Shown here: positions 2,651-53,550 of the stretch, piece after piece
How positions within the stretch are numbered: the first letter of the stretch is position 1
How the letters are laid out: the number at the start of each line of letters is the position of its first letter
NCBI GenBank assembly: GCA_019454045.1
Contig: SKCR01031871.1
Span: forward strand, 53,532 to 117,531
DNA length: 64,000 bases
Source: Zanthoxylum bungeanum
Taxonomy: Eukaryota; Streptophyta; Magnoliopsida; Sapindales; Rutaceae
Reading direction: 5' to 3'
Notes under the pieces: generated by a model
What the model was told of the DNA's origin: nothing
The model's database searches: none
Seen by the model: the letters and a program-made list of their open reading frames with translations, nothing else
Position numbers and translations under genes: made by a program

Positions 2651-2715
2651 AATTACAAGAGTGTTCTCAAACATTTGTTTTCAAATGGTATATAGATTTT
2701 GGTAATTGGTGATAT

Positions 2716-9180: not shown

Positions 9181-9196
9181 AAGCCTTTAGATTTTC

Positions 9197-9204
9197 TATA
9201 AATA
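9197..9204 (+). promoter_or_regulatory. TATA box of Athila-like LTR
   Basis: TATAAATA within TTTTCTATAAATACCAAGC, conserved in the 3' LTR at 29316-29323. It lies about 600 bp into the LTR and is followed by an AATAAA near 9320 and 29440. Confidence 0.75.
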
Positions 9205-9449
9205 CCAAGCTAAACTTTGTAAATTTCTCATGCTTTCTTTGGAAGAATTTTTCCATGAAAACCTAAAGGAAAGTGTCTTGTATATTTATTTAAGTTTTCT
9301 TGTATTTTTTTATTTAATTAATAAAATTTTGTATGTTTTCATTTACATCATGAACAGGTAATCCCATTCTACTGGGTTGAAAAGGTGAGACTTTTAATAT
9401 AATGAATTAGATTAATCTCCATATTTTTTAAAAAATTTAGATTAATTAG

Positions 9450-9632
9450 TTACCGCCTATATGGCCGGTTTAGGTGACAACCTTATTTACTACCTATATG
9501 GTCGGTTTTACATTTCAGATGTAGTTTCCGCCTATATGGTCGGTTTATGTCATAACATTGTTACCGCCAATATGGTCGGTTGGACTTAATTGAGACAAAT
9601 GAAATTTCCGCCTTTATGTTCTTGTTAAATAT
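9450..9632 (+). repeat. Array of ACCGCCTATATGGTCGGTT units in the LTR
   Basis: Five diverged copies of a ~19-bp unit (ACCGCCTATATGGCCGGTT and variants), spaced 30-45 bp apart, start near 9451, 9488, 9529, 9561 and 9606. The same array is present in the 3' LTR (29574-29750), and a reduced version with TACCGCCTGGTTGG-type units is in the related LTR at about 48730-48870. It lies downstream of the TATA box, so it would be in the transcript. Confidence 0.8.
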
Positions 9633-10536
9633 AATTAATTAATCGGTAAACATTGACAATAAGAGAGATTTCTAATTTTGAAATATTAAAAGTGGATCCT
9701 CTAACCCCCAGCATTTTTCTTTTATTGTACTTTTATCTTTTTAATTTCCAAGCATTTACTTTATGTCATTTACTTTATTTAAGTTTTTACTAGCCTTAGA
9801 TATGTTTCGTAACTAAACCAATTATCTGTGGTTGTGATGACTTCCAATATCACTTGTTAATAAGAGGTTGTTTTACGGTTTGGATAATATAAAAGTTTAT
9901 TTATTGAGTCTTAGTCTTAATGCATCTTGTTAACTGGCCATTAATAAGATTGAACTGGTAAACTTAAAATGAACTTGGAAAATGGATTTTAGGTTTAAGA
10001 CCATAGACTCAATAGCCCACGATATTATTTGAGGATATATAACCATTTAATAGATTTCCTTACAGGATATGAATATACCTGTCGGGCGGGGGTAGCCATA
10101 ATTGGAACTTAATCTTAATGAATTCAGGTAACTTGGTTGACATAGGAATATGATTAGTTGGGTTACACTGGGTATTTATATCTGACCATCAGAAGAGGCT
10201 TTTGCATATTTTCGTGTTCCAGGTTAGTAAACCAATATATTGCACAAACGTGAAATAACCGCTTCATCTTTAAAAGATATTGGAAAGATTCACAACCTTG
10301 GATAGTTTCTTAATATTGAATTTTTCTTAATTTACTTTCGTGCTATTTTAGTTACTTTTTTTTAATTTAAAGTCACCATCCAATCAAACGAACAATCCAT
10401 TAGATACTTGTAAAAGTTTGGCTTCATAAATTAATAGTTTAGGTATTAAGTCCTCGTGGGATCGATACTTTTTATACTACTTGAACGATAGGTGCGTTTG
10501 AGTTATACACGTGTGATTACACATCGGTCAAGTTTT

Positions 10537-10554
10537 TGGCGCCGTTGCCGGGGA
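10537..10554 (+). other. Primer binding site, tRNA-Asp type
   Basis: TGGCGCCGTTGCCGGGGA lies 6 bases after the 5' LTR end. It is complementary to the 3' end of plant tRNA-Asp, the usual primer of Athila elements. Confidence 0.88.
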
Positions 10555-12790: not shown

Positions 12791-12798
12791 GTCTTTAT

Positions 12799-15208
12799 TG
12801 TTGGGGTTGGTGATCACAACGCCAATTCCCGGTTGTATTTCTTTATGAATACTTATGTAAAACATTATTATTTTGAATAATATATGCAGTTTCTATAATA
12901 TAATGTATCTTTTAATATGGTAAAGACGTAATGACCTTAGAATGACTAGTCATGGTACAGTTGCAAAAGCGTCGCAACTGACATTGAGTAGTATCATGAC
13001 GTTGTCATTCTCAGACAGTTCCTGGTCAAGGTTTACGCTACTTGGTCAGTATAGTAAACCCGTTGAGACCGGTACATGTCGTATACTGGAATATATGATT
13101 CCAATGGTTTCTCAATGAACCATAAGTCTTGGAGACTAGTATAGACGTGTAGGTGTTTATAGCGGATAAACACTGAATGACTCACCAAAGATTCTTAATG
13201 GATGGTACACCAACGTCAATAAGAATCTTGTCGGGTTGAGTAGCACTTGTGATTCTTAGACTTGAGATGCCATTGTGGGCACATGAGACATCTTCTACAC
13301 TTAGATGGCAGTCACGTCACCGATCTATTTAGATCAGACTTCCGCCTGTTCGTTGGGTGTAGATAGATCCTCAGGCTGTCCTGTGCGTATCAAGATAGGA
13401 TTTGTCAGTTCTGTGTAACAGAGCATAGGTAGTCCATATGATTAGCAATCAGATAAAATCCATGGGCCCGTGGTACAATTTAGAAGCTAGTTCTAAATGT
13501 TCTTTTTGAGATTGCTAATAGAATAGTCGACTGGATAATCCCTATAGAGATTTGACGTTTACATCTATATCTCTGGGATTTATCCGGATACCTGTGACGG
13601 AAGAATTATACATTTTCCATGACCTCGACCTGTATGATTCAGCGAGTTTATTCGTGATCGTCATAATTTACGGGTGGATAAATTATGGACACGAAATTGG
13701 ATTTCGTGACGGATATGCCTGAATCTAGAGAGTCTCAATAATGAAATATACTCGTAGAGCACTAGAGCAACATTTATAAATAATATTGATTATTTATAAA
13801 GTCGTTTAAAGGTTAAACACAAAATACATATTTAGGGACCCGATAGTCATTTCCTTAATTATTGTGTATTTACATTTAATACTTGATTAATTTAAATACA
13901 CATTAATTAATAGTCAAATTGAGATATTTAATTAATATCATAAATATATATATGTATTTAATATTTAATGTAAATATAATACATATATTTAATATATTTG
14001 TATTTAATTAATTAATTAATTATTTAATTGTTAAATGATTAAATTAATTAAAATATAAATATCTTAAGATTTAGATATTTGTTTAATAGCTAAGTTGCCT
14101 TTGTTAACTTTGTTAGAAATATCTTTAAAGTGTTTTTTTTTTTATATTTTAACAAGTTGATTACATGAAAACCAAATGAAATTGAAATTAATTGTCTTAT
14201 ATTTTGCTTAGGCCAAATTCGGCCAAGGCCAAAAGTTGGCAAGTATATATTATTTTAATTTCATTTGGTGAGATAACCTAATACACTTTATAAAAAAACT
14301 CCATTGATAGAAAGAAAAGAAGCTTGAGAGGAAGAAAAGAAAAACAAAGAAAAGCTTGGTTTTTAGTAAGTTTTCTTAACTTGCTATTAGAAAGGAAAAT
14401 GTTCCTTATGTTCTAGGCTACATCTTGTGATGTTCTCATTTTATTCTTTTCTTTATTCTTTGTGTTTTTTTTAATGGAAGTTTGTTGAAAGTGTTGAGCA
14501 TGTATGAACTTGGAAGATTGTTACTAGTGTAGTAATAAACTTTCTTTTATGGTTTTAGAACCTTGTTGCTAATCTAGAGTTATTGACCCACTCTTAAATG
14601 ACCTAGATTTGATCTATAGTTATTTCATTGTGTTGAGACTTTAATTGGATGGAAGAAACATGATTGAAGTAATTGATTTAACCAATTTGGTCTAATTTGT
14701 CCAATTTGAAGAAATTGAAAAATTAGGGTTTAAGACCTCATCCAAATTTAGGGATTTTAATTTATGTTGTGTATTTGGATGTGTATATGATACATATGAA
14801 ATCTTATGTTGATTGGATTTCATCTTGATGTGTTTTGAAGAATGGAAGTGCAAAATGCACATTAGGCCACCTTGGAGGGGCTTTCGGCCAAGGGCAAAAA
14901 TTTTGGGTTTTTTGTTGCTTTTTGTGTTTTGACATTTAGGACATGTTAAGTTCATCTTAGAAATGATTTAGAATCATTCAAAATTGATTTGAACAATTTC
15001 GGACTAAAATGAACAAAATGCCAAGTGTAAGGGCAATTCGGTAAATTAACAAAAATTTGATTTATTGAATTTGATTTCATAATTTTATTATCGGACAATT
15101 AAATAAATATGTTTATTTAATTTATCGGAGAAAAAGTTTTGAAATCGGAAAATTTGATTTTCCACCGTTTCCGCTGCGTTACCGGATATCCGCCATAAAA
15201 CCCCTACA
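12799..15208 (+). repeat. 5' LTR of nested copia element
   Basis: Begins TGTTGGGGTTGGTG and ends CCCCTACA. It is the same family as 19531-21941 and 44320-46623, with more distant homology at 824-2330. A TATA-like TTTATAAAAA lies at about 14287. There is no long ORF. The open frame at 14692-14955 (minus) is conserved in the other LTR only because the LTRs are copies of each other. Confidence 0.93.
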
Positions 15209-15211
15209 AAA

Positions 15212-15222
15212 TGGTATCAGAG
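15212..15222 (+). other. Primer binding site, initiator tRNA-Met type
   Basis: TGGTATCAGAG starts 4 bases after the LTR end CCCCTACA. It is complementary to the 3' end of plant initiator tRNA-Met, as in most copia elements. Confidence 0.9.
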
Positions 15223-15970
15223 AGAGTCTGATTCTAGGCCCCCTAAAATGATTAGCTTGTTTGATTCAATATTTAATCATGTTTTTAACTTTATACATGC
15301 ATGTTATAATCTAATTTGATTAGATTTAGGGTGTATGACATTTAGCGGAAAAACCCTAATTAATAAGGTTTTAATGTAATTATGTATTTGATGCATGTTA
15401 TGTGGTCCGTCTTGTCAATACGGTTTATAAATATTTCTTTGTGACTACATCCGAGACCGTTCCTCTGTTGTGAGGATGTAGCCGATAGAGATTTATTTAT
15501 ACCGGATGTATATCAGATACTAGATAAATTCAACTGAAAGAGGAATCTTGAACGTGCCCTAGCTGTCAGGGTTACGCAAGTAACTTGAGTTTATCATTGA
15601 CGAGTTTATCCTTGGTACGTCTCCTTGTGGGCCTGCCTTAGCAGCGACAACGAGAAACGACCAGGACCGGAAACCCATGAGTCACTTGTGAGTGATTGAC
15701 AAATGAGTTGTCTACCTGATGAATATACGTAGGCGAGACCGTGCCTCTGCTGTGAGCTGAAATATATTCACGGGATCCACTTTTCACTATTTGTATTTAA
15801 TTTAATTATTAAATCTATGTATTCTGTTTGGGGATTACAGTATTGCATGATATAGTGGAAGGGGCATTTTTAGATTAAAAATCCATGATCTAGTTTATGC
15901 TTTTGATATTATATGAAACTGCTTAAATTTCTGCTAACCATTTTTCGTGATCTATATGATAGATTTGCGA
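15223..15970 (+). other. Untranslated leader of nested copia
   Basis: About 750 bases without an ORF between the PBS and the gag ATG. The same leader is present at 46640-47386 in the deleted relative. The motif GAGACCGT(T/G)CCTCTG(C/T)TGTGAG occurs twice (15451 and 15739 areas) and may be a structured RNA region. Confidence 0.7.
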
Positions 15971-16735
15971 TGACGGCACCATCTACGAATCAGTTTGCGC
16001 GTATGCTTGATGCGAAAAAACTAAAAGGCGCAGAGAACTTCGCTGATTGGACTTGGATTTGAGGATTGTCCTCGATTCCGAGAAGTTGGGATATGTTCTT
16101 GAGGTTCTGTTGCCCATTGCTGTGGGTGAGGATGCTACACCGGAGGAACGCTACCTACCATGAGTTACATAGGATGTTGCTCACGGCGGAGGAGGACCTC
16201 AAGAAGGGAGTACCGAATCGCCCTCCGAGATCTACTTCTCTTTCAGCTTCTTCCCAGGCCTGGCCAAAAGGAAAGAAAAGAAATGGAAGAAGAAGAAGGG
16301 TTTCGGTCCTCAACCACATGCAAAGATATCTAAGCCCAAAAGGGTTTCTGAAGACAATTGCCATCACTGCAGCAAAGTCGGACACTGGAAAAAGAACTGT
16401 CCTGACTACATCGCCCAGCTAAGGAGGGAGAGAGCATCTACATCAGGTATATTTATTTTTCCAGTTATTGATATATCTTTGGCTTGTGAAGCCGTTGCAT
16501 CCAACTGGATTTTAGATTCTACTTATCTCATTCACATTTGCAATTCGTTGCAGGTGCTGAAGGAAAGTAGAAGACTGAAGCCTTGAGAGATGCAGTTGTG
16601 ATTCGGGAGTGGAGACTCTCTGGATGCAGTTACTGTGGGAGTATGCGAGATCTCATTGCCGAATGTGACACTTTTGTTAAATGAATGCCATTTTGTACCA
16701 GGATGTGTAGCTAATATTATATCACTTTTTGTATT
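15971..16735 (+). pseudogene. Copia gag and protease remnant
   Basis: From ATG 15971 the start reads MTAPSTNQFARMLDAKKLKG, then shifts frame at about 16049. An internal deletion near 16150 joins the N-terminal domain to the nucleocapsid region, compared with the longer gag of the copy at 47387. The zinc knuckle is recognisable at about 16365-16410 (CHHCSKVGHWKKNC, a CCHC motif). The protease follows: NWILDST-(Y)-LIHICNSLQ at about 16498 shows the catalytic DSG changed to DST, then frameshifts, and LNECHFVPGCVANIISL ends the domain near 16735. Not functional. Confidence 0.82.
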
Positions 16736-16841
16736 AGATACATAGTTCTTTTGTATTAATATTAAGAATTGTTCTTTATATTTATATGATAAAAGTAATA
16801 TTCAGATCCTTTGTTGTCCAAACCAGCATGGTCATTATACA

Positions 16842-17880
16842 TTGCAAACTTCAAAAGATATTTTAAATACTGGAGTTAATAAACGTAGTTTACCTGTAAT
16901 TAATAATACTGAACTTTGGCATATGTGGCTGGGTCACATAGGCGTTAAACGCCTTACCCAATTGGTTAGGAATGGTTTGATACCAGATCTTACTATTGAA
17001 TCCTATCCAACTTGTGAATCTTGTATTCAGGGTAAGATGACCAAAACCCCATTTTCTGGTGTTGGACATCGCGCCGCTAACTTACTGGAACTCGTACATT
17101 CTGATGTATGTGGTCCACTAAGTCAGACTGCTCACAGTGGTTATTCGTACTTCGTTACCTTTACCGATGATTTGTCACGGTACGGTTATGTGTATTTGAT
17201 GCGACATAAATCGGAAACCTTTGAAAAGTTCAAAGAATTCTGAAATGAAGTAGAAAAAAACTGGACAATATATTAAATGCCTTCGATCTGATCGAGGCGG
17301 TGAATATATGAGTGGTGAGTTCATGGATTATATGAAGGAGAATGGGATTCTCGCTCAATATACTCCTCCAGGTACTCCACAACACAATGGAGTGTCTGAG
17401 AGGAGAAATCGGACTTTATTAGATATGGTCCGATCAATGTTGAGTTTCACATATTTGCCCTATTATTTATGGGGCTACTCTATTTTAACAGCTGCACATC
17501 TTTTGAATAAGATTCCTTCAAAAGCTGTTCCTACGACACCGTATGAGATATGGTTCGGTAGGAGACCAAATCTTAGTTACATTAAGGTTTGGGGTTGTCC
17601 TGCCTATGTCAGGGTGGCTCAGCAAGATAAGCTTTCGCCTCAAGGGTAAAAGTTTAGGTTTGTCGAATATCCTTCGAATACGAGGGGATATCTGTTCTAT
17701 GATACCGAGCATCGAAATGTGTTCGTAGCTCGCTTCGTAATATTTCTAGAAGTAGAAATTTTGTCAGAAGGTGGTAATCATAGACAGGTTGAACTTGATG
17801 AAGTCCAACCTGAAAATAACGAACCAACGGAGGAACCTGAAGTTCAAGTAGATAAAGGACCTTCAACACACACTCCGTAG
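16842..17880 (+). pseudogene. Copia integrase
   Basis: Integrase inserts the cDNA into chromosomes. The GAG-pre-integrase/HHCC zinc site reads ELWHMWLGHIGVKRL ... CESCIQGKMTKTPF (about 16910-17055). The catalytic core has HSDVCGPL and FVTFTDDLSRYGY (first Asp at about 17100), then a TGA at 17241 and a TAA about 30 bases later. The core resumes at 17308 with MSGEFMDYMKENGI, QYTPPGTPQHNGVSERRNRTLLDMV (the catalytic Glu is in SERRN), YLWGYSILTAAHLLNKIPSK and the usual VWGCPAYVR. The frame ends at 17649. The linker to RT after it is broken by stops. Confidence 0.88.
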
Positions 17881-17939
17881 GTCAGAAAGGGTATCTAGAC
17901 CTCCTGAATGCTTGTATTTGATACAAGAAAAGAGTTTGG

Positions 17940-18678
17940 ATGTTCTCTTAGTTGAAGAGACTGATCCTTTCACCTATAGAGAATCGATGTTGGACATCGA
18001 CTCCGTGAAATGGCAAAGTGCCATGAAATCTGAGTTAGACTGAATGCATGAGAATCAAGTTTGGGACTTGGTTCCGCTTCCCAAAAGAATTGTTCCTATC
18101 GGTTGTAAATGGGTTTACAAGAGGAAGCGCGGGCCTGACGGTAAAGTTGAAACTTACAAGGCCCGACTAGTCGACCTGGCGTCGACTACGATGAAACTTT
18201 TTCACCAGTAGCAATGCTTAAGTCTATCCGGATTTTGCTTTCTATAGCTGCGTATCATGACTACGAGATTTGGCAAATGGATGTGGCTTTTCTAAATGGA
18301 TTTCTTGATGAAGAAATCTATATGGAACATCCAGAAGGTTTTACGTCCAGCGAAAACTCGGGTATGGTATGTAAGCTTAAGAAGTCCATTTATGGACTTA
18401 AACAAGCTTCACGAAGTTGGAATCTTCGATTCGACGAGATTATTAGATCGTCTGGTTTTCTCAAGAATTCGGAAGAATCCTGTGTGTATCAGAAGGCCAG
18501 TGGGAGCATGGTCGTATTTTTAGTCCTATATGTTGATGACATCCTAATCATTGGGAATGATTTAGGAATGTTACAAAGCGTCAAAGCGTACCTCTGTAAG
18601 AATTTCTCCATGAAGGACCTGGGAGAAGCTTCCTATGCTTTAGGGATAAAACTCTATAGAGATAGACAAAGAGGCTGA
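17940..18678 (+). pseudogene. Copia reverse transcriptase
   Basis: The domain starts with WQSAMKSELD, then a TGA at about 18042, then QVWDLVPLPK, GCKWVYKRKR and TYKARLV. A small deletion near 18170 removes the AKG-xxQ stretch and shifts frame. From 18214 the frame is open: MLKSIRILLSIAAYHDYEIW, QMDVAFLNGFLDEEIYMEHP, KSIYGLKQASRSW and catalytic YVDDILIIGND at about 18529. A stop at 18676 separates it from RNase H. Confidence 0.9.
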
Positions 18679-18686
18679 TTGGGTTA

Positions 18687-19514
18687 TCCCAATCAACGTA
18701 CATAGATAAGATCTTAGAACGGTATAATTTTGGTAACTGTAAGACAGCAAACATACCGTTCAGACATGTGATTCATCTTTCTAAGAAGATGAGTCCATAA
18801 ACAGAAGATGAGAAGGTTAGAATGTCTAACCAACCTTATGCTTCGTGTTTGGGTAGCATAATGTATGCCATGTTATGTACAAGGCCTGATATCAGTTTCG
18901 TTGTTAGCGTAACTAGTAGATATCAGTCCAATCCAGGTAATGACCATTGGATGGCCATTAAACATATCCTCAAGTATCTTAAAGGTACTAAGGATAAGTT
19001 AATAATTTATGGAGTAAACGAACTGCAAGTTAACGGGTATACGGATTCTGATTTCCAATCGGATCCCGATGATAGAAAGTCTACATCTGGATTCGTATTT
19101 ACCCTTAACGGAGGTGCAGTTTGTTGGAAGAGTTCCAAACAGGGATCAACAGCAGATTCCACCACTGAGGCGAAATATATTGCAACTTCTGAAGCTGCAA
19201 AAGAGGCTGTGTGGATAAAGAACTTTATCACAGAATTTGGAGTTGTCCCAAGTATTGAGAATACGATTCCGTTATACTGTGATAATACTGGAGCCATTGC
19301 ACAAGCAAAGGAACCGAGCGCGCATCAGAAGTCGAAGCATGTGGAACGCAAGTACCACATCATTCGAGAGATTGTGTCGCGAGGGGATATTATCGTGTGC
19401 AAGGTACCAAGTGAAGATAATGTAGCAGACCCGCTGACGAAGGCCATACCTCCGAAGTTGTTTGATAAACACATGGAGTCGATGGGTATTAGATACAATC
19501 GTTATTGGCACTAG
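18687..19514 (+). pseudogene. Copia RNase H domain
   Basis: RNase H removes the RNA strand during cDNA synthesis. The frame from about 18822 is open to 19514: SCLGSIMYAMLCTRPDISF, HWMAIKHILKYLKGT, GYTDSDFQSDPDDRKSTSGF, TTEAKYIATSEAAKEAVW, YCDNTGAI and HVERKYHIIREIV. The D-E-D catalytic residues are present in GYTDSD, TTEAKY and YCDNTG. The natural polyprotein end follows ADPLTKAIPPKLFDKH. This is the best preserved domain of the element. Confidence 0.9.
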
Positions 19515-19530
19515 AGCAAGTGGGAGTTTT
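19513..19530 (+). other. Polypurine tract before 3' LTR
   Basis: GAGCAAGTGGGAGTTTTT directly precedes the 3' LTR. The AAGTGGGAG core is the plus-strand priming tract typical of copia elements. Confidence 0.75.
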
Positions 19531-21941
19531 TATTGGGGTTGGTGCTCACAGCGCCAATTCCCGGTTGTATTTTTTTTTGAATACTTCTGTAAAACATTAT
19601 TATTTTGAATAATATATGCAGTTTTTATAATATAATGTATCTTTTAATATGGTAAAGACGTAATGACCTTAGAATGACTAGTCATGGTACAGTTGCAAAA
19701 GCGTCGCAACTGACATTGAGTTGTATCATGACGTTGTCATTCTCAGACAGTTCCTGGTCAAGGTTTACACTACTTGGTCAGTATAGTAAACCCGTTGAGA
19801 CCGGTACATGTCGTATACTGGAATATATGATTCCAATGGTTTCTTAATGAACCATAAGTCTTGGAGACTAGTATAGACGTGTAGGTGTTTATAGCGGATA
19901 AACACTGAACGACTCACCGAAGATTCTTAATGGATGGTACACCAACGTCAATAAGAATCTTGTCGGGTTGAGTAACACTTGTGATTCTTAGACTTGAGAT
20001 GCCATTGTGGGCACATGAGACATTTTCTACACTTAGATGGCAGTCACGTCACCGATCTATTTAGATCAGACCTCCGCCTGTTCGTTGGGTGTAGATAGAT
20101 CCTCAGGGTGTTCTGTGCGTATCAAGATAGGATCTGTCAGTTTTGTGTAACAGAGCATAGGTAGTCCATATGATTAGCAATCAGATAAAATCCATGGGCC
20201 CGTGGTACAATTTAGAAGCTAGTTCTAAATGTTCTTTTTGAGATTGCTAATAGAATAGTCGACTGGATAATCCCTATAGAGATTTGACGTTTACATCTAT
20301 ATCTCTGGGATTTATCCGGATACCTGTGACGGAGAAATTATACATTTTCCATGACCTCGACCTGTATGATTCAGCGAGTTTATTCGTGATCGTCATAATT
20401 TACGGGTTGATAAATTATGGATACGAAATTGGATTTCGTGACGGATATGCCTGAATCTAGAGAGTCTCAATAATGAAATATACTCGTAGAGCACTAGAGC
20501 AACATTTAAAAATAATATTGATTATTTATAAAGTCGTTTAAAGGTTAAACGCAAAATACATGTTTAGGGACCCGATAGTCATTTCCTTAATTATTGTGTA
20601 TTTACATTTAATACTTGATTAATTTAAATACACATTAATTAATAGTAAAATTGAGATATTTGACTAATATCATAAATATATATATGTATTTAATATTTAA
20701 TGTAAATATAATACATATATTTAATATATTTGTATTTAATTAATTAATTATTTATTTAATTGTTAAATGATTAAATTAATTAAAATATAAATATCTTAAG
20801 ATTTAGATATTTGTTTAATGGCTAAGTTGCCTTTGTTGACTTTGTTAGAAATATCTTTAAAGTGTTTTTTTGATATTTTAACAAGTTGATTACATGAAAA
20901 CCAAATGAAATTGAAATTAATTGTCTTATATTTTGCTTAGGCCAAATTCGGCCAAGGCCAAAAGTTGGCAAGTATATATTATTTTAATTTCATTTGGTGA
21001 GATAACCTAATACACTTTAATAAAAAAAACTCCATTGATAGAAAGAAAAGAAGCTTGAGAGGAAGAAAAGAAAAACAAAGAAAAGCTTGGTTTTTAGTAA
21101 GTTTTCGTAACTTGCTATTAGAAAGGAAAATGTTCCTTATGTTCTAGGATACATCTTGTGATGTTCTCATGTTATTCTTTTCTTTATTCTTTTTGTTTTT
21201 TTTTTGAATGGAAGTTTGTTGAAAGTGTTGAGCATGTATGAACTTGGAAGATTGTTACTAGTGTAGTAATAAGCTTTCTTTTATGGTTTTAGAACCTTGT
21301 TGCTAATCTAGAGTTATTGACCCACCCTTAAATGACCTAGATTTGATATATAGTTATTTCATTGTGTTGAGACTTTAATTGGATGGAAGAAACATGATTG
21401 AAGTAATTGATTTAACCAATTTGGTCTAATTTGTCCAATTTGAAGAAATTGAAAAATTAGGGTTTGAGACCTCATCCAAATTTAAGGATTTTAATTTATG
21501 TTGTGTATTTGGATGTGTATATGATACATATGAAATCTTATGTTGATTGGATTTCATCTTGATGTGTTTTGAAGCATGGAAGTGCAAAATGCACATTAGG
21601 CCACCTTGGAGGGGCTTTCGGCCAAGGGCAAAAATTTTGGGTTTTTTGTTGCTTTTGGTGTTTTGACATTTAGGACATGTTAAGTTCATCTTAGAAATGA
21701 TTTAGAATCATTAAAAATTGATTTGAACAATTTCGGACTAAAATGAACAAAATGCCAAATGTAAGGGCGATTCGGTAAATTCACAAAAATTTTATTTATT
21801 GAATTTTATTTCATAATTTTATTATTGGACAATTAAATAAATATGTTTATTTAATTTATCCGAGAAAAAATTTTGAAATCGGAAAATTTGATTTTCCATC
21901 GTTTCCGCTGCATTACCGGATATCCGCCATAAAACCCATAC
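19531..21941 (+). repeat. 3' LTR of nested copia element
   Basis: Begins TATTGGGGTTGGTGCTC (the terminal TG has become TA) and ends CCCATAC, where the 5' LTR has CCCCTACA. It is otherwise collinear with 12799-15208 with scattered substitutions and short indels in homopolymers. Confidence 0.92.
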
Positions 21942-21946
21942 TTTAT

Positions 21947-22946
21947 AAAGCTACACATCAACATTCCATTTGCAAAAGCGTTGGAAGAAATACCCAGCTG
22001 TGTCAAATTCATGAAAGATATTCTTTCACGAAAGCGGAGATTGGGAGATTATGAGACAGTAGCATTGACAGAAGAATGCAGCGCCATCATTCAGAGGAAA
22101 CTTCCCACAAAGTTGAAAGATCCTGTCTGTTTTACTGTCCCATGCACAATTGGAGAACATTATATCGGTAAGGCTTTATGTGATTTAGGTGCAAGTGTTA
22201 ATTTGATGTCTTTTTCTATTTACAGGAAACTGTAAATTGGAGAAGCAATGCCCACCTCGGTCTCTCTGCAACTTGCTGATATAACGCTCGCATTTTCGCG
22301 AGGAGTAGTTGAAGATGTGCTGGTGAAAGTCGACAAACTCATTCTCCCAACAGATTTCATTATCCTTGACATGGAGGAAGACAAAGATGTACCTATCATT
22401 CTTGGGAGACCATTATTGGCTACAGGTCAAACTGTTACTAATGTGCAAAAATGAGAATTAACCATGAAAGTGCAGGACCAAGAAGTTACCTTTAATGTTT
22501 TCAAAGCCATGAAATTCCTCAGTGATGAAAAGGAAGAGGAATGTTTCAGAATTGATGTTGTAGATAGTATCATCCAAGATACTGATGTAATGCCACCTCC
22601 CACAGATAAACTTGAAGCTTGCATCACTAACGTAATTGACAACGAGCTAGATGAAGAAATTCTGGAATATATCAAATATATTGACAGACCATTTCGCTTC
22701 AAATCGACACCACAAGTGGAAAATCTGGAACTACCGAAAAATGAGCGAATTAAGCCTTCGATTGAAGAACCACCACAGTTGGAGCTAAAGTTACTCCTGA
22801 GCCATCTCATGTATGTATTCTTAGGAAACTCTTCTGAATTACCTGTGATTATTTCTTCTTCGCTAACATTGGAGCAGGAAGAAAAGTTACTGAGAGTGTC
22901 ACGAGAACACAAGAAATCCATTAGCTGGACTATAGCAGACATTTGA
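21947..22946 (+). pseudogene. Athila-like protease and linker
   Basis: This is the continuation of gag-pol after the nested copia. The frame starts with KLHINIPFAKALEEIPS and FMKDILSRKRRLGDYE, then the retropepsin site LCDLGASVNLM at about 22180 (Athila elements usually have DLGAS). A TAA at 22233 splits it. The next segment (22248-22454) has VSLQLADITLAF and IILGRPLLATG, the second protease motif, ending in TGA. The third segment (22464-22946) is a linker of about 160 residues that ends in TGA just before the RT. Several stops fit CGA or CAA codons turned to TGA or TAA. Confidence 0.87.
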
Positions 22947-23890
22947 GGCATTAGTCCATCATTTTGCATGCACAAAATTCTAATGAACGATGAGTGCAAA
23001 CCTACAATAGAGCATCAACGGAGACTAAATCCAATCATGAAGGAGGTTGTGAAGAATGAAATCATCAAATGGTTGGATGCTGGCATCATTTACCCCATCT
23101 CTGACAGCATTTGGGTGAGTCCTATACAGTGTGTGCCAAAGAATTGAGGAATTATTGTAGTCACTAATGAAAAGAATGAGATGATTCTAACAAGAACGGT
23201 GACTGGATTGAGAGTATGCATGGACTATCGGAAGCTGAACAAAGTAACAAGGAATGATTATTTTCCGCTGTCATTCATTGATCAGATGCTAGATAGATAG
23301 GCGGGACATGAGTTCTATTATTTTCTGGATGGATATTCGGGGTATAATCAGATTTACATCGCTCATCATGAGAAAACCATATTTACATGTCCATATGGTA
23401 CTTTTGCTTTCCACAGAATGCCATTTGGATTATGTAAAGCTCCTGCTACATTTCAACGTTGCATAATGGCCATCTTCTCAGACATGCTGGAACAAAGTAT
23501 GGAGGTTTTCATGGATGATTTCTCTGTGTTTGGAGACTCTTTCGACCACTGCTTGCAAAATCTAGAACAAGTGTTACAAAGGTGCGAAGATACTAACATG
23601 GTACTCAACTGGGAGAAATGACACTTCATGGTGCATGAAGGCATTATCCTAGGACATCGGATCTCACAAAAGGGAATCGAGGTAGACAAAGAAAAGATCG
23701 AGACAATTGAAAAAATACCTCATTCAACATCTGTCAAAGGGATTCGGAGTTTTCTCGGACATGCAGGCTTTTACATGAGATTTATCAAAGACTTCTCAAA
23801 GATTGCTAAACCTCTGTGCAATCTTCTGGAGAAAGATGTGTCTTTCAACTTCACCAAAGAATGTCATGAAGATTTTGAGATCTTAAAATA
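22947..23890 (+). pseudogene. Athila-like reverse transcriptase
   Basis: Ty3/gypsy RT. Motifs in order are EVVKNEIIKWLDAGIIYPI, VSPIQCVPKN, TGLRVCMDYRKLNKVTRNDYFPL, FLDGYSGYNQI (first catalytic Asp), CPYGTFAFHRMPFGLCKAPATFQRCM-like, then VFMDDFSVFGDSFDHCL with the catalytic Asp pair. GILGHRIS-type and RSFLGHAGFYMRFIKDFSKIAKPL mark the RT end. In-frame stops lie at about 23146 (TGA), 23299 (TAG), 23619 (TGA) and 23889 (TAG). The frame is otherwise kept, so decay is mainly by point mutation. Confidence 0.93.
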
Positions 23891-24440
23891 GAAGCTGGTC
23901 TCTGCCTCCATCATAGTAGCACCAGACTGGACTCTTCCATTTGAGGTGATGTGCGATGCTAGTGATTTTGCTGTAGGTGCAGTTTTGGGACAACGCAAAG
24001 TAAAGATTTTCCATACCATTTACTACTCCAGCAGAACTCTGAATGAAGCACAACTCAACTACACAACCACTAAAAAGGAGTTGCTTACAGTTGTGTTTGC
24101 TTTTGATAAATTCCGCTCATATCTGTTTGGTCCCAAAGTGGTGGTCTACACAGATCATTCAGTAATCAAATACATAATCGCGAAGAAAGATGCCAAACCC
24201 AGATTTATCCGTTGGATACTTCTACTGCAAGAATTTGATGTGGGGATCAGAGACAGGAAAGAGATAAAAAACCAAGTGGCAGATCACTTATTGAGGCTTG
24301 AGAATGGAGAAACAGCTAGCAATGAACTGACATCAAAGAAAATTTTCCAGATGAACAGTTATTTTCCATGAAACAACATGATGTCCATTGGTATGCTGAC
24401 TATGTCTTTAACTACATAGTATCAGGAAAATGACCGTTAG
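23891..24440 (+). pseudogene. Athila-like RNase H
   Basis: The frame resumes with [20 protein letters not shown], then [15 protein letters not shown] (first catalytic Asp), [22 protein letters not shown] (Glu), [12 protein letters not shown] (Asp) and [20 protein letters not shown] stop or slip near 24370 breaks the linker to integrase, and further stops occur at about 24432 and 24495. Confidence 0.9.
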
Positions 24441-24499
24441 AATAGACAACTCAACAACGGAAGAAATTCTTCAAAGAAGTCAAGCACTATGACTAGGAT

Positions 24500-25690
24500 G
24501 AGACGTACCTGTTCAAACATTGTGCTGATCAATTACTAAGACGTTGTGTTCCACATGATGAGGTCAATAGTGTTCTGCAATATTGTCATTCATCACCATA
24601 CGACGGACACTTCAGCGGAAATAAAACTGCAGCCAAAGTCCTACAATTAGGTTTGTTCTGGCCCACTCTATTTAAAGATGCTTATCTTTTTGCTCTTCAA
24701 TGTGACATGTGCCAAAGAACGGGGAATATTTCGATGAGAAATGAGGGACCTTTACAAAACATTCTGGAAATGGAGATATTTGATGTGTGGGGGATTGATT
24801 TTATGGGACCTTTTGTTCCATCATTTAGAAACCTGTACATACTAGTTGCAGTAGAATACATCTCCAAATGGGTTGAAGCAATAGCATTGCCATCAAATGA
24901 TTCTAAAGTGGTGATAAAATTCCTTAAAAAGTATATTTTCACTCCCTTTGTAATACCTCGGGCGATTATCAGCGATGATGGCACATATTTCTGCAACAGA
25001 TACTTCGATGCACTCCTATCTAAATACAGAGTTACTTATAAAGTTGCAACTGCTTACCATCCACAATCAAATGGACAGGTTGAAGTTTCAAACAGGGAGA
25101 TCAAAATTTTTTTGGAAAGAACCGTTGGATCAACGAGGAAGGACTGGTCTGAAAAACTGAATGATGCACTATGGGCCTACCGGACAGCTTACAAGACACC
25201 CATCGGTATGTCCTCATATCGAATGGTGTTTGGGAAAACATGTCATTTGCCAGTTGATCTTGACATAAGGCATACTGGGCACCGAAGAAGTTGAATCTCA
25301 ATCCACAAGCTGCAAGAGAAAAACGGCTCCACCAACTCAACGAATTGGAGGAATTATGCCTACAAGCTTATGAGAATGCCAGAATATATAAAGAAAAGAT
25401 GAAGAAATGGCATGATAAAAAGATATTGCGTAGACAACTTGAGCCAGGGCAGCAGGTGTTGTTATATGATTCATGGTTGAAACTTTTCCCTGAAAAGCTA
25501 AAATCAAAATGGTCAGGTCCATTTGTGATTACTCAGGTTTTACCATACGGAGTTGTTGAGATATACAACCCCAAGTCCGACAACACATTCAAAGTTAATA
25601 GCCAGCGTGTCTAGCACTACTGGGAAGAATCAATTGAGCGACGAAAAGAAATTGTCACACTTTCAGATCCAGCCTAACATCCGGGCAGTC
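24500..25690 (+). pseudogene. Athila-like integrase
   Basis: The zinc site region includes [19 protein letters not shown] and [12 protein letters not shown]. The catalytic core has [12 protein letters not shown] (first Asp), [13 protein letters not shown] (second Asp) and [17 protein letters not shown] (Glu), then [23 protein letters not shown] frameshift at about 25292 leads into the C-terminal domain: ENARIYKEKMKKWHDKKILRR, PGQQVLLYDSWLKLFP and KSKWSGPFVITQVLPYGVVEI. A TAG at 25612 falls where other Athila elements have a Lys before HYW. No chromodomain is seen, as expected for this lineage. Confidence 0.92.
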
Positions 25691-25815: not shown

Positions 25816-26259
25816 ATGGAAGAAGCTCTCGCAAATCTTCACAAGTAATTTCCTTCTCTCCCTCAAAACTCCCTGATGAAAGTTTACAAAGCTCGCTTGG
25901 AACGGATGAGACTACTGATGATCAAAGGTATTCCTACTGACATTCGTTGGATTATTGAAGCACGGGTCCAATTATCAGGTGAGTCCTCTGACTCTTTTAT
26001 TTCAAATATGTCTGGTTTAGGAAGAAGCACAATTGCTAAAAAGATGAGAGCTAAAAGAATGGGTGTTTGTTATAAATATGCTCGCATGACATGTAATACT
26101 CGTTGTCGTTCTTTAGAAATGGTGTCTGATAACCGTGAATTTAAGATTAAATTCATTGAGGATGGCTTGAGTAAGGAGTATTTGAAAGAAATATCTAAGA
26201 CGCTTGAGGCGCATCCCAGTGGATATGTATATCACGCAACTCGTATGTTACATACATAA
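25816..26259 (+). pseudogene. Extra ORF: small basic Cys-containing protein, weakly like plant-virus nucleic-acid-binding proteins
   Basis: ATG 25816 is in frame with the long ORF; one TAA at 25846 interrupts it, and an internal ATG follows at 25876. The product is about 147 residues. From 25876 the first ~50 residues are rich in Arg, Ile and Leu. Then come a GLGRSTIAKKMRAKRMG basic stretch and a CYKYARMTCNTRC segment, followed by FIEDGLSKEYLKEI. The order GRS-x-x-A, Arg/Lys cluster, Cys pairs and a short helical tail is reminiscent of the small Cys-rich nucleic-acid-binding proteins of carlavirus-type plant viruses. Only part of a four-Cys finger remains and the similarity was judged by eye. 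It lies between integrase and the LOG-like ORF in the same orientation. It could also be a lineage-specific Athila protein. I do not assign a function. Confidence 0.55.
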
Positions 26260-26439
26260 TTCCGAAAAGAAAGACAACAGTATTGTCTCGGGAATCTGAC
26301 TCTAAAAGATCTCATTTGCCAATTTATAAGAAAATTGGATTGGAAGCTTGTCCCTGACGCATAGACATCATTCAAGTCGTTACATCCTGTAAATATTATT
26401 TTCCTTGTCTTTATCTAATAATTATGATTTGTTTGTTAT

Positions 26440-26556
26440 TTTATTTTCTCCGACAGGATCCAGACTTTTTGACTTTCACGATATATTTTACTATTCAGCT
26501 AATAATTTTCATTTGGCAGGTACTAGTGCTATTATTACTCACCTTTTTTCAGGTTC
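26440..26556 (+). promoter_or_regulatory. Cluster of candidate 3' splice acceptors before the LOG-like ORF
   Basis: Three pyrimidine-rich tracts end in AG within 120 bp: TTTTCTCCGACAG (to about 26457), TCATTTGGCAG (to about 26520) and CACCTTTTTTCAG (to about 26554). They lie 50-150 bp upstream of the LOG-like ATG. Spliced subgenomic RNAs are one known way for retroelements to express genes downstream of pol. Function here is inference. Confidence 0.3.
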
Positions 26557-26603
26557 TATAAATTCAGCTCATCATTGCACTTTTGAAGGCATCCAGAGTT
26601 GAA

Positions 26604-27257
26604 ATGGAAGCCACTTCAAGAAGACGAGTTGTAAACATCTGTGTGTTTTACGGTACTAGTGCTGGTTCTAAACCATTATTCATTGCAGCAGCACAGGAAT
26701 TGGGTCGAGTCATAGCTGAAAGTAATATGCACTTATTATATGGCGGTGGCAATCTTGGAATAATTGGGATCATTTCAAGGGCTGTACATGAAGGAGGAAG
26801 TCAAGTTTTGAGAATCATCTCAAAACCTTTGGCAGAGGCGAATCTTATAGGACCATCAAATGGAGAGGAACTTATCGTACCAGGTATGTCTGAATGACTG
26901 GTTGAAATGATTAACCATGCTGATGCTTTTATTACTTCGTCAGGTGGCTTGGGTACGATGAAGGAAATTTTTACAGTGTTATCTTGGGCGAACCTGAACA
27001 TACATCAGAAACCGATTGGACTGTTTAACGCTGATGGATTTTATGACTTTCTTTGTGTGTTTCTTGATGATGCTCGAAGAAATGGGTTCGTGTCAAAACC
27101 TGTAAAAAATCTCTTCTTCACTACCAGAACTACCCATGATTTAATTGACCAAATTTTAGCATTTGAACCACAAATTGACCCTATCATTTCCAAGATTAAT
27201 TGGTCCGATAATGATCGTGGTAAGAAGCGTCGGATAATTCTGGATCTTAACCTTTAA
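26604..27257 (+). pseudogene. LOG-like: LOG-family cytokinin phosphoribohydrolase-like gene carried by the retrotransposon
   Basis: LOG enzymes cleave cytokinin riboside 5'-monophosphates to free cytokinin and ribose 5-phosphate in the cytosol. From ATG 26604 to TAA 27257 the frame encodes about 217 residues, the normal LOG length, without introns. Family blocks are in order: VNICVFYGTSAGSKP near residues 10-25, LLYGGGNLGIIGIIS near 50, AVHEGGSQVL, DAFITSSGGLGTMKEIFTVL at about 110-130 (the PGGxGTxxE motif with Pro replaced by Ser), NIHQKPIGLFNADGFYDFL and DDARRNGFVS. One TGA at 26895-26897 stands where the family has a conserved catalytic Arg before the next helix (SE-stop-LVEM), consistent with CGA becoming TGA. 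The ORF lies after integrase and before the element's 3' UTR and PPT, in the element's orientation, so it is cargo and not a host neighbour. It reads as a decayed copy of a once complete gene. Confidence 0.85.
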
Positions 27258-27370: not shown

Positions 27371-27831
27371 TTGATTAATATTTTTTTATGGTGTTGTTTT
27401 TATTTGATTTTTAGTCAAAATTTTTTAAAAATTCAAAAAATTAAAAAAATTTATAAAAATTAAAAAAATATTTTCTGTTTTTATGTTTTTAACATGATTA
27501 ATCAGGTGAAATTGGTGTGAGATAGCTGTGTAAGGAACTGTGTAAGGAATTTCCACTCCTGAGACGTATCTCAACATTTTTCGTAATAAGTTAATTTTTG
27601 TTTATTTCCTTTTGTATTATTAAATTTTTGAATTCTCCATAATACTGACTAAATTGGATCTTCATATGCTCAGTTGACAAGTATTATCAACATGCATGGT
27701 AACATACAGCCATGAGATGTATTTGAAAAATTTATAATATTCAGTGCTCTAGTTTAATTGGAGGAAACATCTAAGAAAAAGAAAAAGAAAAAAGAAAAAA
27801 GGAAAAAGAAAAAAGTGTGTATAAAATAAAA
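27371..27831 (+). other. 3' UTR of Athila element, A/T-rich, no gene
   Basis: Contains a TTTTTAAAAATTC/AAAAATTT run (27415-27475) and an AAAAAGAAAAAGAAAAAAG purine run (27776-27815). No convincing ORF is seen. Confidence 0.6.
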
Positions 27832-28220
27832 ATGTCTAAAATCCGAGTCATTAAGTCCGTAGGGGTATTTTAACACCTAGTGCCCTAAAGCAAACTGGTT
27901 TGGGAGTCACTGGCCCAAAGCTCGCTACATGGATCAAAGATGTTATAAAAATAAAAAGAAACATCTGAAATTCAAGTAATTAAGTCTGTAGGGGTGTCTT
28001 AACACCTAGTGCCCTAAAGCCAACTGGTTTGGGAGTCACTGGCCCAAAGCTCGTTACATAGATGGAAGATGTTGCTTTCTTTATTTTTTTTTTTAAAAAA
28101 AAGATAGAGATATCTGAAATCCTAGTAATTAAGTCTGTAATGGTGTCTTAACACCTAGTGCCCTAAAGCCAACTGGATTGGGAGTCACTGACCCAAAGCT
28201 CCCTACATAGATGGAAGATA
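27832..28220 (+). repeat. Three tandem copies of a ~110-bp unit in the 3' UTR
   Basis: Units at about 27832-27943, 27962-28074 and 28110-28220 share TAATTAAGTC(T/C)GTA, TAACACCTAGTGCCCTAAAG, ACTGG(T/A)TTGGGAGTCACTG and CCCAAAGCTC. They are separated by A- or T-rich spacers of different lengths. Each unit contains short complementary stretches and could fold in RNA. No coding sense. Confidence 0.9.
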
Positions 28221-28709
28221 TTGTATATAAATAAAAAAAATATTTCATTGCTAAAAAGTGTGAATTCTGATATAACTTTAGGACAAAAATATTACTCTCT
28301 TTTCAACTACACTAATGAATATTGTGGGCACAATGATTTGATTAATACCTTGTTGATTGTGTATATGAAGAATGGTAAAAATAATCTGAGAATTTACTTA
28401 TTTGGTAATTTAGAAAGAAAGAAAATATCTACTAACTTGGATAAGAAGTTTCACTTGTTTAGTCACTAACTTTTTTATTCTCTTTTCCCTTGTCTTTTTG
28501 CTTTTGTATGCATTAGATTGACGTTTGTGGGTATCGTCACTGTAAGCACTCACGAGACTACAACTCGTCCACTAGGGACACCTAGGGGTTTAAAGGCTTG
28601 TTGCATACGCTAAATGCAACTGTGATCCCTACGAAAGTGGCTTAGTTTAATTTTAATTATTTGTTGTATTTTATTTTGTTGTTTTGCTTGAGGACTAGCA
28701 AAATGTTAG
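28221..28709 (+). other. Distal 3' UTR of Athila element
   Basis: An 82-codon open frame (28221-28469) starts with TTG and resembles no family known to me; I do not call it a gene. The part from 28510 (ATTGACGTTTGTGGGTATCG) to the GCTTGAGGACTAGCAAAATG just before the PPT is a typical Athila 3' end. Confidence 0.55.
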
Positions 28710-28721
28710 GTTTGGGGGGTG
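28710..28721 (+). other. Polypurine tract before Athila 3' LTR
   Basis: GTTTGGGGGGTG directly precedes the 3' LTR start TGATGAGCGG at 28722. Confidence 0.8.
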
Positions 28722-29939
28722 TGATGAGCGGAAAATATATCAATATTTACCACCTATTTCACCTAATATTTTTTTTAGTTTTCGGGTCTGATGAACGTTT
28801 TGATGTGTTTTAGTTTATTTTACAGATAAAATAAAATTGAGACTTAATGGAATCATTTAGGACGAAATGTGGAACAAATAAGGTCAAAATCTGGACTTGA
28901 CGTGTTGATTATGGAGATTGGAAACTTGAAATGGTGATCTAACGAAGTACAATTTCAGAAATTCCAACTTTGTGCAATTATCGTATTTTAGCCATAACAT
29001 TTTACTCCGATATCTGATTGAGGTGATTCAAGTTTCAGATTAAATAAGACTCAAAGATCTACAATTTTGACGTTCATAATAATTTCGAATTATGAATATT
29101 TCATGACCGAAATTGATGAAATATTCGGAAGTGTGTTATGTGTAATTATTTAAGTCATTTTCAAAATAAAATTAAAATAAATAAAAATTGTCAAACTTCC
29201 ACCAAACATGCTTGCATATTTGGTGGAGGATTTGGTGTCATGTTTGGTGTCATGTTTGATGCCATGTTTGGTGGAGCCATTGGTGGAGAAATTGGTGGAA
29301 GCCTTTAGATTTTCCTATAAATACCAAGCTAAACTTTGTAAATTTCTCATGCTTTCTTTGGAGGAATTTCTCTATGAAAACCTAAAGAAAAGTGTCTTGT
29401 ATATTTATTTAAGTTTTCTTGTATTTTCTTTTTATTTAATTAATAAAATTTTGTGTGCTTTCATTTACAGCATTAGCAGGTAATCTCATTCTGCTGTGGT
29501 GAAAAGGTGAGACTTTTAATATAATGAATTAGATTAATCTCCCTTATTTTTTTTAAAATTTGGATTAATTAGTTACCGCCTATATGGCCGGTTTAGGTGA
29601 CAACCTTATTTACCACCTATATGGCCGGTTTTACATTTCAGACGTAGTTTCCGCCTATATGGTCGGTTTAGGTCATAACCTTGTTACCGTCTATATAGTC
29701 GGTTGGACTTAATTGAGACAAATGAAATTTCCGCCTTTATGGTCCGGTTAAATATAATTAATTAATCGGTAAACATTGATAATAAGGGAGATTTCTAATT
29801 TTGAAATATTAAAAGTGGATCCTCTAACCCCCAGTATTTTTCTTTTATTGTACTTTTATTTTTTTTAATTTCCGAGCATTTTATTTATGTCATTTACTTT
29901 ATTTAAGTTTTTACTAACCTTAGATATGTTTCGTAACTA
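28722..29939 (+). repeat. Athila-like 3' LTR, truncated
   Basis: Collinear with 8596 to about 9815. Homology ends at TTTCGTAACTA, after which the sequence is that of a minus-strand copia LTR (ACGATTCTCAATATACCC). The last ~700 bp of the LTR are missing. Confidence 0.92.
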
Positions 29940-30508
29940 CGATTCTCAATATACCCAGAAGAGGCGTACACAGAACCTGTTAAAGTCTCGGACGACCAAA
30001 ACCAAAGTATACTGATTGTCGCAAGTATTAGAGATGCAAGTCTCATGTTAAGACCAAATACACCTACCCTGATTCAGATTCCCATAGACACATGGTCATA
30101 CTACCAATGGGATTCTGATGGGTCTATCTAGAGCGAAGCTGTTTCCGTACCATCGGTAAACAGAACCTCCTGTTACACTTGCATGAGTATCCAATACCCA
30201 AATATATGAGAACTATGCTGTTACGCTTCTATAATACGCACAAGTGTAATACTAGCCTATTCTGTATTATTGATGTCCAGTCTCGATAATACTACGACTA
30301 GAGATATTTAATGATTAAACCTTAGTAGATTAATATTGTCTCATATCTTATTAATCCGGTACTAATCATATGGATTTTTATCATTTATATATCCAGGTAA
30401 TCCAATTACAAATTCCAAAAGATCAATTTCCTTTGTCACATAGTTAATTTGTACAACAACACTATGTTTTGTACAAATAATGATGCTATGGGTCATAATT
30501 ATCCAACA
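29937..30508 (-). repeat. Truncated 3' LTR of minus-strand copia
   Basis: It matches 39869-40441 with scattered differences. The minus-strand start TGTTGGATAATTATG is at 30508. Only the first ~570 of about 1946 bp are present; the rest was lost at the junction with the Athila LTR. Confidence 0.9.
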
Positions 30509-30525
30509 ATCTCACACTTGGCCTA
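30509..30525 (-). other. Polypurine tract of minus-strand copia
   Basis: On the minus strand GGCCAAGTGTGAGAT directly precedes the LTR start TGTTGGATAA. It matches the AAGTGGGAG-type copia tract with one change. Confidence 0.65.
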
Positions 30526-38495: not shown

Positions 38496-40441
38496 TGTTA
38501 GTGTCCTATACATGCCACAGGATCTCTAAGCGTGATTCGTGTGTGAATAAAATCAAAAATAAGTTGCGGAGGACTTACATTGATCGGTTGAGTTCAAAAC
38601 TTTTTCTTGGATGATGGAAGCTCCAAGCCTTCTTTTGGTGTTTCCAACACTCGGGTGAGTCTCCCTATCACCTTCATTTGACTCCTTAATGTGCTAGCAT
38701 TGAAGAATTTTGCAACAAAATCCATGGACAGAAGGGAGAGAAGCTCATCATTTTGAGGGAGAAGAGAGAGCTTGTTGTGAATAGTGAAAAGTATGTTAAA
38801 TTCCAAAGTCAACAAGTCTTTTATATTAAGGTTGAGTGTTGGTTTTAGCTTGAGTGTTTTAAAAGCAAAGCCAAGCTTATCTTTCAACAAATCAAATCCA
38901 AAACCAAGCCTAACTACTTCCATCATTAGTCAAATAAATGATGTAAGTGAAGTGGGTCCCACCACTTTTAAATTCCGAATTTAAGTCGGTTAACTCAACA
39001 CGCAACTTCGCTCGGGCACGGGTTCGTTTAATCCGATTAAACGAATTTTTCGTTGCGACATAATTAAATCCAATTTAATTAAATAATAATGCCTAGCAAA
39101 ATTATTACGAAAGTCGCTTGCGAATTAATTCTAAATTAATTCTTTCGCCCGAATTAAAATCCAATTTTAATTCCGCTTTGAAATCTAATTTCATTTAATA
39201 TATCCAATATATTATTTTAGTCCAATTAAATAAATTAAATAGAAAAATCCAATTTAACTATTAAAATTATTTTTACCGATTAATTCAAAATTAATTTCGT
39301 TCTCTCTCTTATAGTCGAATTAATCCCAGATTAATTCTTGCCGTAATTAATCCTAGATTAATTTTCTCTCGCTTATAATTAATCCCAGATTAATTCTGTT
39401 CGAGTCAAATGTCATCGGTGAATCTTTAGGAGGCGACCCAAGAGATCCCTGGATATGTTGGCAGTAAATACGGTCATCGGACTGTCTAAATACGTACACA
39501 CCCGGTACCACGTTCTTATCGATTTACAAGACATGGTTGGCTTCTAGCAAAGCACCGTGCCTACCCAATTCTCCAGAAATATTCTTTTAAGGAATACAAG
39601 ATCTTTGACAGGCGTAGTATACATAGTATTGCGTATTACGATCCAGTATCGGATGTCACATGCTAGGCCTGGGGCTGGAGTTGTGTCTGCCTCGTACAAA
39701 GCATATATCGAATCACTGACAACTAGTCTCTTTATGATCGGAAAGTCATGACCTAGTCATACTTTCCCGATGGCTAAAGTACTATAGAGTACCAGTTCTG
39801 TATCCCTGTGTGATCATCATCTCCATATGACTGAAGTGATACTTCCATCTTGACATCACACCCAATACACTACGATTCTCAGTATACCCAGAAGAGGCAT
39901 ACACAGAACATGTTAAAGTCCCGGACGACCAAAACCAATATATACTGATTGTCGCATGTATTAGCGATGCAAGTCTCAGGTTAAGACCAAATACACCTAC
40001 CCTGATTCGGATTCCCATAGACACATAGTCATACTACCAATGGGATTCCGAGGGGTCTATCCAAAGCAAAGCTGTTTCCATACCATCGGTAAACAGAACC
40101 TCATATTACACTTGCATGAGTATCCAATACCCAAATATATAAGAACTATGCCGTTACGCTTCCATAACACACACAAGTATAATACTAGCCTATTTCGCAT
40201 TATCGATGTCCAGTCTCGATAATACTACGACTAGGGATATTTAATGATTAAACCTTAGTGGATTAATACTGTCTCATATCTTATTAATCTAGTACTAACC
40301 ATATGGACTTTTATCATTTATATATCCAGGTAATCCAATTACAAATGATAAAAGAGCAATTTCCTTTGTCACATAGTTAATTTGTACAACAACACCATGT
40401 TCTGTACAAATAGTGATGCTATGGGTCATAATTATCCAACA
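38496..40441 (-). repeat. 5' LTR of minus-strand copia, 1946 bp
   Basis: On the minus strand it runs from TGTTGGATAATTATGACCC (40441) to CACTAACA (38496). The first 570 bp match 29937-30508. The middle is AT-rich with many TAATTAA-type runs (39060-39400). No gene is seen. Confidence 0.9.
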
Positions 40442-53500: not shown

Positions 53501-53550
53501 GGGTGTCTGAGGTTCTGGATTCACATTTCTGTATTGCTGGGGCATTGTCT

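Follow-up and report, generated by a model that had tools for sequence, protein, structure and literature searches.

An intronless LOG-family gene and a NABP-like ORF in Athila-type retrotransposons of Zanthoxylum bungeanum

An intronless gene of the LOG family was identified in Athila-type Ty3/gypsy LTR retrotransposons of Zanthoxylum bungeanum, where it occurs in high copy number, is commonly accompanied by a NABP-like ORF and is retained in elements which have lost pol. We lean slightly towards the reading that this lineage keeps a captured LOG which would make active cytokinin and thereby keep the cells of the element dividing. Host genes captured by LTR elements are usually deemed debris, while in this case a hormone enzyme shows constraint at the protein level among divergent copies, pol-less elements included; with such constraint, whether transposons gain from host hormones becomes a directly testable question.

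The window, that is the whole stretch of 64,000 nucleotides which was analyzed, contains a carrier element at 8595-29939, divided by a nested element and showing the gypsy domain order gag-RT-RNase H-integrase between its LTRs (Table 1). The lineage name Athila rests on this layout and on known motifs; TGGCGCCGTTGCCGGGGA was taken to be the Athila-type primer-binding motif in its tRNA-Asp reading, and 0.01 matches with up to three mismatches would be expected in the window. In the LTR pair 1132 of 1232 columns were identical and 24 were gap columns, which corresponds to approximately 6% substitutions or, at an assumed substitution rate of 1.3e-8, to some 2.5 million years, so that the decay of this copy is unsurprising. 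The gag region is interrupted at about 11560-12110, other copies matching gag on both sides of this stretch and not across it, and no Pfam match to a protease was obtained within 21933-22943. The nested element was judged by eye, from its ORFs, to be copia-type. The LTR of a further element (29936-30509, partner 39869-40442) starts where the 3' LTR of the carrier stops, and this junction probably caused the loss of the LTR end.

Table 1. Features of the carrier element and of the sequences within it (window positions)
Feature	Position	Strand	Remarks
5' LTR	8595-10536	+	starts TGATGAGCGG; pairs with 28721-29939; far end set from where the primer-binding site starts (10537) rather than from LTR pairing
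Primer-binding site	10537-10554	+	exact TGGCGCCGTTGCCGGGGA; one exact match in the window
gag region	10746-12788	+	PF03732 (2.9e-20) on 10746-11369
Nested LTR element (not carrier)	12795-21941	+	LTRs 12795-15207 and 19527-21941, 97.3% identical
Reverse transcriptase and RNase H	23301-24371	+	several broken frames; PF00078 (1.6e-14), PF17917 (2.6e-34)
Integrase	24497-25614	+	broken; PF00665 (2.1e-12), PF17921 (9.2e-09)
Extra ORF 1, NABP-like (carlavirus-type)	25816-26364	+	two in-frame stops
Two acceptor-like AG sites	26455-26552	+	ends 26456 and 26552, before LOG start
Extra ORF 2, LOG-family gene	26604-27257	+	in-frame stop at codon 98
3' UTR	27818-28223	+	repeat unit of about 128 nt present three times, adjoining LOG
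3' LTR	28721-29939	+	end lost at about 29939

A preliminary description of this DNA had placed a LOG gene in an Athila-like element, in sense orientation between its integrase and 3' UTR; the NABP-like ORF, the nested element and the missing end of the 3' LTR went unnoticed there. This placement was confirmed, the gene lying downstream of the Ty3/gypsy integrase and in its orientation, as were the LOG length, the intron-free state and the order of the LOG blocks quoted there. The further claim of a full-length ORF did not hold, since the reading frame is divided by its stop into two ORF pieces (26583-26897 and 26907-27257). Both halves of the product matched TIGR00730 (4.8e-14 and 2.2e-19), each scoring below the whole-protein cut-off of the model, and the second half matched PF03641 above cut-off (1.3e-21), which upholds the family assignment. 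The window LOG is 80% identical, end to end and without gaps, to P0001, an uninterrupted protein of 217 amino acids. A chance likeness to the LOG family is excluded. Relative to its clade it differs at four of 50 columns which are at least 95% conserved, and its active-site motif is altered.

The host assembly (3.96 Gb, 51,709 contigs) contains at least 150 intronless LOG (PF03641) matches, a lower bound because scoring covered 150 out of 47,331 first-look candidates. All 150 exceeded the PF03641 cut-off, each as one stretch over domain positions 1-130 or 1-131, and three carried an internal stop. For orientation, Arabidopsis has nine LOG genes. Twenty-eight loci (eight, plus 20 drawn from the other 142 matches) were read and gave 29 LOG copies whose match exceeded 150 residues. 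Upstream and on the same strand, NABP sequence was found for 20 of these copies and some integrase for 16, while nine showed neither. In the 28 loci read, LOG is surrounded by flank and LTR sequence of the window element, and uninterrupted LOG copies are among those found. Neither of the outcomes which the preliminary description had named as speaking against it, an ORF carried by no other element copy and a failure of placement in the LOG family, was observed. An ordinary host LOG gene lying beside or under an inserted element was also considered; nothing in its favour was found, and it was ruled out, practically with certainty, by the enclosure of LOG within an LTR pair, the number of genome matches and the recurring flanks.

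Three layouts were distinguished among the loci. T1 has the order gag-pol-NABP-LOG (for example L035, L038, L041 and L051), the fetched stretches covering part of gag-pol and some frames being closed. In T2 (L042, L047, L048 and L052) the reverse transcriptase is gone, leaving gag, the start of the protease region, the end of integrase, NABP and LOG. T3, with nine loci, consists of LTR, primer-binding region, an ORF designated ORFX, LOG, 3' UTR and LTR, without capsid gag, pol or a whole NABP; five of its loci are longer (L039, L045, L046, L049 and L053), and four (L026, L027, L028 and L032) were assigned with no more than 1.3 kb of sequence upstream. From primer site to LOG the five longer loci are 79-91% identical to each other, with ORFX broken in some. 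The LTRs of L053 are 99.5% identical over their comparable parts (845 and 752 columns), and LTR divergence K was 0.007 for L049, 0.004 for L046 and 0.041 for L045. T3 elements have therefore moved recently, presumably by means of proteins of other elements. ORFX spans 377-415 codons in L046 (1434-2567) and L053 (2681-3928) and encodes an acidic protein; the L053 version contains a CxxCx4Hx4C motif. Its comparison to Pfam gave nothing above cut-off, and a weak BLASTP match with the latter half of gag (E 1e-5 for one comparison, 20% identity, 108 columns) hints that it may be a gag remnant. T1, T2 and T3 copies are intermixed in the LOG tree, as if the 3' part with LOG were moving between layouts.

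The ORF preceding LOG resembles the nucleic acid-binding proteins (NABP) of carlaviruses. Its window copy is 77% identical to P0123 over 182 residues, and 29 of 36 candidates were relatives at E<=0.01. PF05515 was matched by 22 of the 24 aligned members, and PF01623 likewise by 22 of 24 (E<=0.05). Three proteins (P0123, P0128 and P0141) exceeded both curated cut-offs and P0136 exceeded one and equalled the other, while P0140 fell below both, as did the window copy (21.5 bits against a PF05515 cut-off of 23). A basic stretch precedes a Cys cluster, and the genomic place is after the integrase of LTR elements, not in a carlavirus genome. Viral contigs scanned with P0001 and A2 yielded no relative, and with A1 gave 24 loci of 27-59% identity over the best segment. 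A structure model of poor quality (pLDDT 61.5) had no BFVD match at E<=0.001.

Genome contigs were scanned with NABP, not LOG, as the query. Locus L025 (DAIEQH010000041.1, 3330 bp) carries an integrase, an open NABP frame (1799-2344) and the conserved 3' UTR block, LOG being absent. DNA similarity between it and the window stops at 26383 and restarts at 27279; about 0.9 kb including LOG is therefore missing from L025, which has 159 bases instead. Its NABP scores above the PF05515 cut-off and below that of PF01623. The contig is filed under a Candidatus Nomurabacteria MAG, its content being that of a plant-type element, and is probably plant contamination of that MAG. Between the window and L025, dN/dS of NABP was 0.21 (bootstrap 0.12-0.33) at a dS of 1.19, which is strongly diverged; the same comparison of integrase gave no value, its synonymous sites being too diverged. 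Among copies picked by LOG the NABP value was 0.32 (25 pairs, eight copies including the window), and four of seven gap-free own-genome copies were stop-free. Athila-type elements appear to carry the NABP ORF as a conserved additional gene, which also occurs without LOG.

Selection on LOG was estimated from 25 gap-free copies, comprising 24 from the own genome (21 of them stop-free) and that of the window. The median dN/dS was 0.209 over 298 pairs, with 0.213 for T3 (28 pairs) and 0.194 for NABP-bearing copies (118 pairs), all of these being lowered because the copies were chosen by PF03641 score, which favours intact LOG. Pooling over the sequence beyond the scored stretch gave 0.346 (bootstrap 0.24-0.57), compared to 0.142 inside, and T3 alone gave 0.334 (0.20-0.55) outside. 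The ratio below 1 which the preliminary description had proposed to look for was thus found. In one T3 pair (L053/L046) dN/dS was 0.13 for LOG and 0.68 for ORFX next to it. Comparison of the window copy with the others gave 0.34 for LOG and 0.36 for NABP, the higher value being expected of a decayed copy. The dS of LOG was twice the 3' flank distance; use of this flank as a neutral yardstick was dropped, as it is itself conserved between copies. Taken at the level of these substitution ratios, LOG is under purifying selection.

Two further explanations were weighed against these values. A LOG cDNA caught once and then copied along as a passive passenger, without function for the element, would accord with the broken state of the window copy and with L025, in which NABP without LOG indicates that LOG is dispensable in that lineage. 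This explanation is nevertheless improbable, since dN/dS is about 0.35 even outside the scored stretch and LOG has been retained where RT, pol or NABP were lost. Moreover, the best 120 of 722 relatives, whole or partial LOGs of 45-81% identity, include uninterrupted proteins of 217 amino acids, whereas a neutral simulation left 1.9% of frames stop-free at 55% residue identity, so that neutral decay leaves at most 2% at or below that identity. The second explanation, that the LOG stretch is kept as a nucleotide signal for splicing, packaging or 3' end formation rather than as a protein, would suit the conservation between copies of the spacer and 3' flank adjoining LOG, but is very hard to sustain because the constraint follows the frame (0.21, compared to 0.72 and 1.37 in the two wrong frames).

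A custom acceptor score devised in this analysis places the two AG sites preceding LOG among the best 0.16% and 0.14%, respectively, of the 3659 AG sites of the window. An acceptor-like site of the top 1% was present within 260 nt of the LOG start in all 24 other copies, cases which are not independent because their spacers are related. LOG is perhaps expressed from spliced mRNAs.

A tree was constructed from the window LOG and 45 relatives, taken from 96 of suitable length among the best 120 of 722, with 15 LOG1/3 proteins, one LOG8 chain and two bacterial chains as references. The relatives and the window LOG formed one clade apart from LOG1/3/8 (96/94). The label TE in this tree marks relatives chosen by similarity, their location in elements being known for the own-genome copies and the published Citrus and Populus ones, and the Xanthoceras branch may therefore consist of host genes. 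As the tree lacks host LOG5/7-type proteins, a single capture is not proven by it. Relatives in the clade include the annotated Xanthoceras sorbifolium proteins P0016, P0017, P0063 and P0066, two of them with a doubled LOG domain, and P0063 and P0066 lie on an early branch. Populus proteins named LOGL10 also belong to the clade; lists of plant LOG genes may thus include element genes.

The motif PGGxGTxxE was taken to be the LOG active site. A pattern of the type PGGxG..xE is present in 103 of the 115 clade proteins in which the motif was located and is missed by 12. PGGLGTLEE occurs in 71 of the 115, the rest being mostly close variants, compared to PGGYGTLEE in 109 of 109 LOG1/3 proteins; the own-genome copies have PGGLGTLEE in 26 of 27 cases and PGGFGTMEE in one. 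At a site with Arg, presumably the catalytic residue, in at least 95 of 105 clade proteins, nine have Gln. The predicted model of P0001 shows a LOG fold (pLDDT 84.5) with a disordered tail, and its best PDB match was 2a33, At2g37210 (E 3.3e-20, TM 0.94 by target length). Fold and motif are shared with the plant LOGs At2g37210 and At5g11950, with which P0001 shares 40-46% identity across the matched structure; unlike plant LOGs, the element protein is encoded without introns, mostly has PGGLGT where LOG1/3 have PGGYGT, carries a basic LxLxL tail and falls in a separate clade.

The tail lies outside the stretch used for picking own-genome copies. Of the 106 clade proteins that extend this far, 81 have LxLxL, presumably an EAR-like motif, compared to none of 120 LOG1/3 proteins, while K[KR]x[KR] is found in 98 of 106 and one of 120, respectively. 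Among 27 own-genome copies, three of which have alignments that break off before the C-terminus, 19 keep LxLxL. These features would fit a LOG-fold protein kept for a role other than cytokinin activation, such as hydrolysis of other nucleotides close to reverse transcription, binding of the RNA of the element itself or engagement of nuclear co-repressors through the tail, by which silencing would be disturbed. The retention of LOG in pol-less elements also suits a role in cis better than a shared hormone: a cytokinin benefit could be common to all elements in the cell, so that this retention is not simply explained by it. Such a role is possible, if doubtful, as most clade members preserve the active-site motif, the tail is varied or missing in 25 of 106, and selection is tighter in the enzyme core than outside it, the core being the stretch used for picking.

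According to the slightly favoured reading, an Athila-type element would have captured a plant LOG as cDNA, which would account for the lack of introns, downstream of its integrase and beside an older NABP ORF, and would have retained it as one of its own genes. Most likely the LOG protein would act as a phosphoribohydrolase which converts cytokinin nucleotides to active cytokinin wherever the element is transcribed. Active cytokinin may keep cells dividing, also near the germ line, and thereby help integration and transmission; as in the preliminary description, we infer this benefit through cytokinin and meristem cells.

PMC7588395 describes chrysanthemum virus B p12 as a nuclear transcription activator and cytoplasmic silencing suppressor. 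The element NABP resembles this and other carlavirus NABPs in PF05515, PF01623 and the basic stretch before the Cys cluster, and differs in its coding position behind the integrase of an LTR element and in the lack of a viral fold match to its poor model. By analogy with p12 it might be a nucleic acid-binding protein that weakens silencing or alters host transcription, and host reprogramming and shielding as a joint programme of LOG and NABP are plausible. A wider proposal is made only tentatively and we regard it as rather unlikely: a two-gene module for host manipulation, comparable to that of plant viruses and gall bacteria, consisting of a virus-type NABP, perhaps anti-silencing, and a cytokinin-activating enzyme, the gene of the latter being so useful that non-autonomous elements retain it when capsid gag, pol and NABP have gone. 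If it were true, cytokinin balance in a genome with very many LOG copies would partly be set by transposons.

Steinbauerova et al. (2011) reportedly described two Athila-like elements with similarity to LOGL4. A YgdH/LOG domain was found in LTR-element consensuses of Citrus sinensis and C. clementina and, without the filter of that study, in LTR elements of Populus trichocarpa, in stated agreement with Steinbauerova et al. 2011 (PMC9289625). The LOG cargo, for which the preliminary description knew of no example, is therefore not new in itself; the Citrus and Populus cases are alike in having a LOG-family domain on plant Gypsy-type elements (PMC9289625). The relevant section of that work consists of domain detection, to which Zanthoxylum adds the number of copies, the three layouts, the selection on LOG and its tail, the NABP neighbour and the carriers without pol. 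Another host-type enzyme kept by Ty3/gypsy elements is the AlkB RNA demethylase of Phalaenopsis Gypsy elements, whose activity was tested in vitro (PMC9289625), whereas here a predicted hormone enzyme is known from sequence. Among the open-access matches listed, neither the NABP partner nor selection on LOG nor pol-less LOG elements were reported, and none of a virus-type nucleic acid-binding gene in plant Ty3/gypsy elements was found in the literature searched. As far as these searches show, the copy number, three layouts, purifying selection, separate tailed clade and NABP ORF are new. Athila and Calypso elements carry env-like 3' ORFs. The extra ORFs described here share with these the sense position between integrase and 3' LTR, and other extra ORFs have been described (PMC11728184, PMC7264820); unlike the Athila/Calypso extra ORFs, NABP and LOG are neither env-like nor transposase-like.

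Some loci departed from the three layouts in detail. L034 and L037 hold tandem copies, arranged head to tail, of a unit of about 3.5 kb which comprises a partial LTR, NABP and LOG. In L044 gag-pol runs in the opposite direction, and L036 has lost most of NABP. Self-comparison of the window also revealed related repeats of about 3 kb at 2651-5687 and 50581-59091, the latter apparently divided by an element whose LTRs (51267-51579 and 56438-56751) measure about 315 bp.
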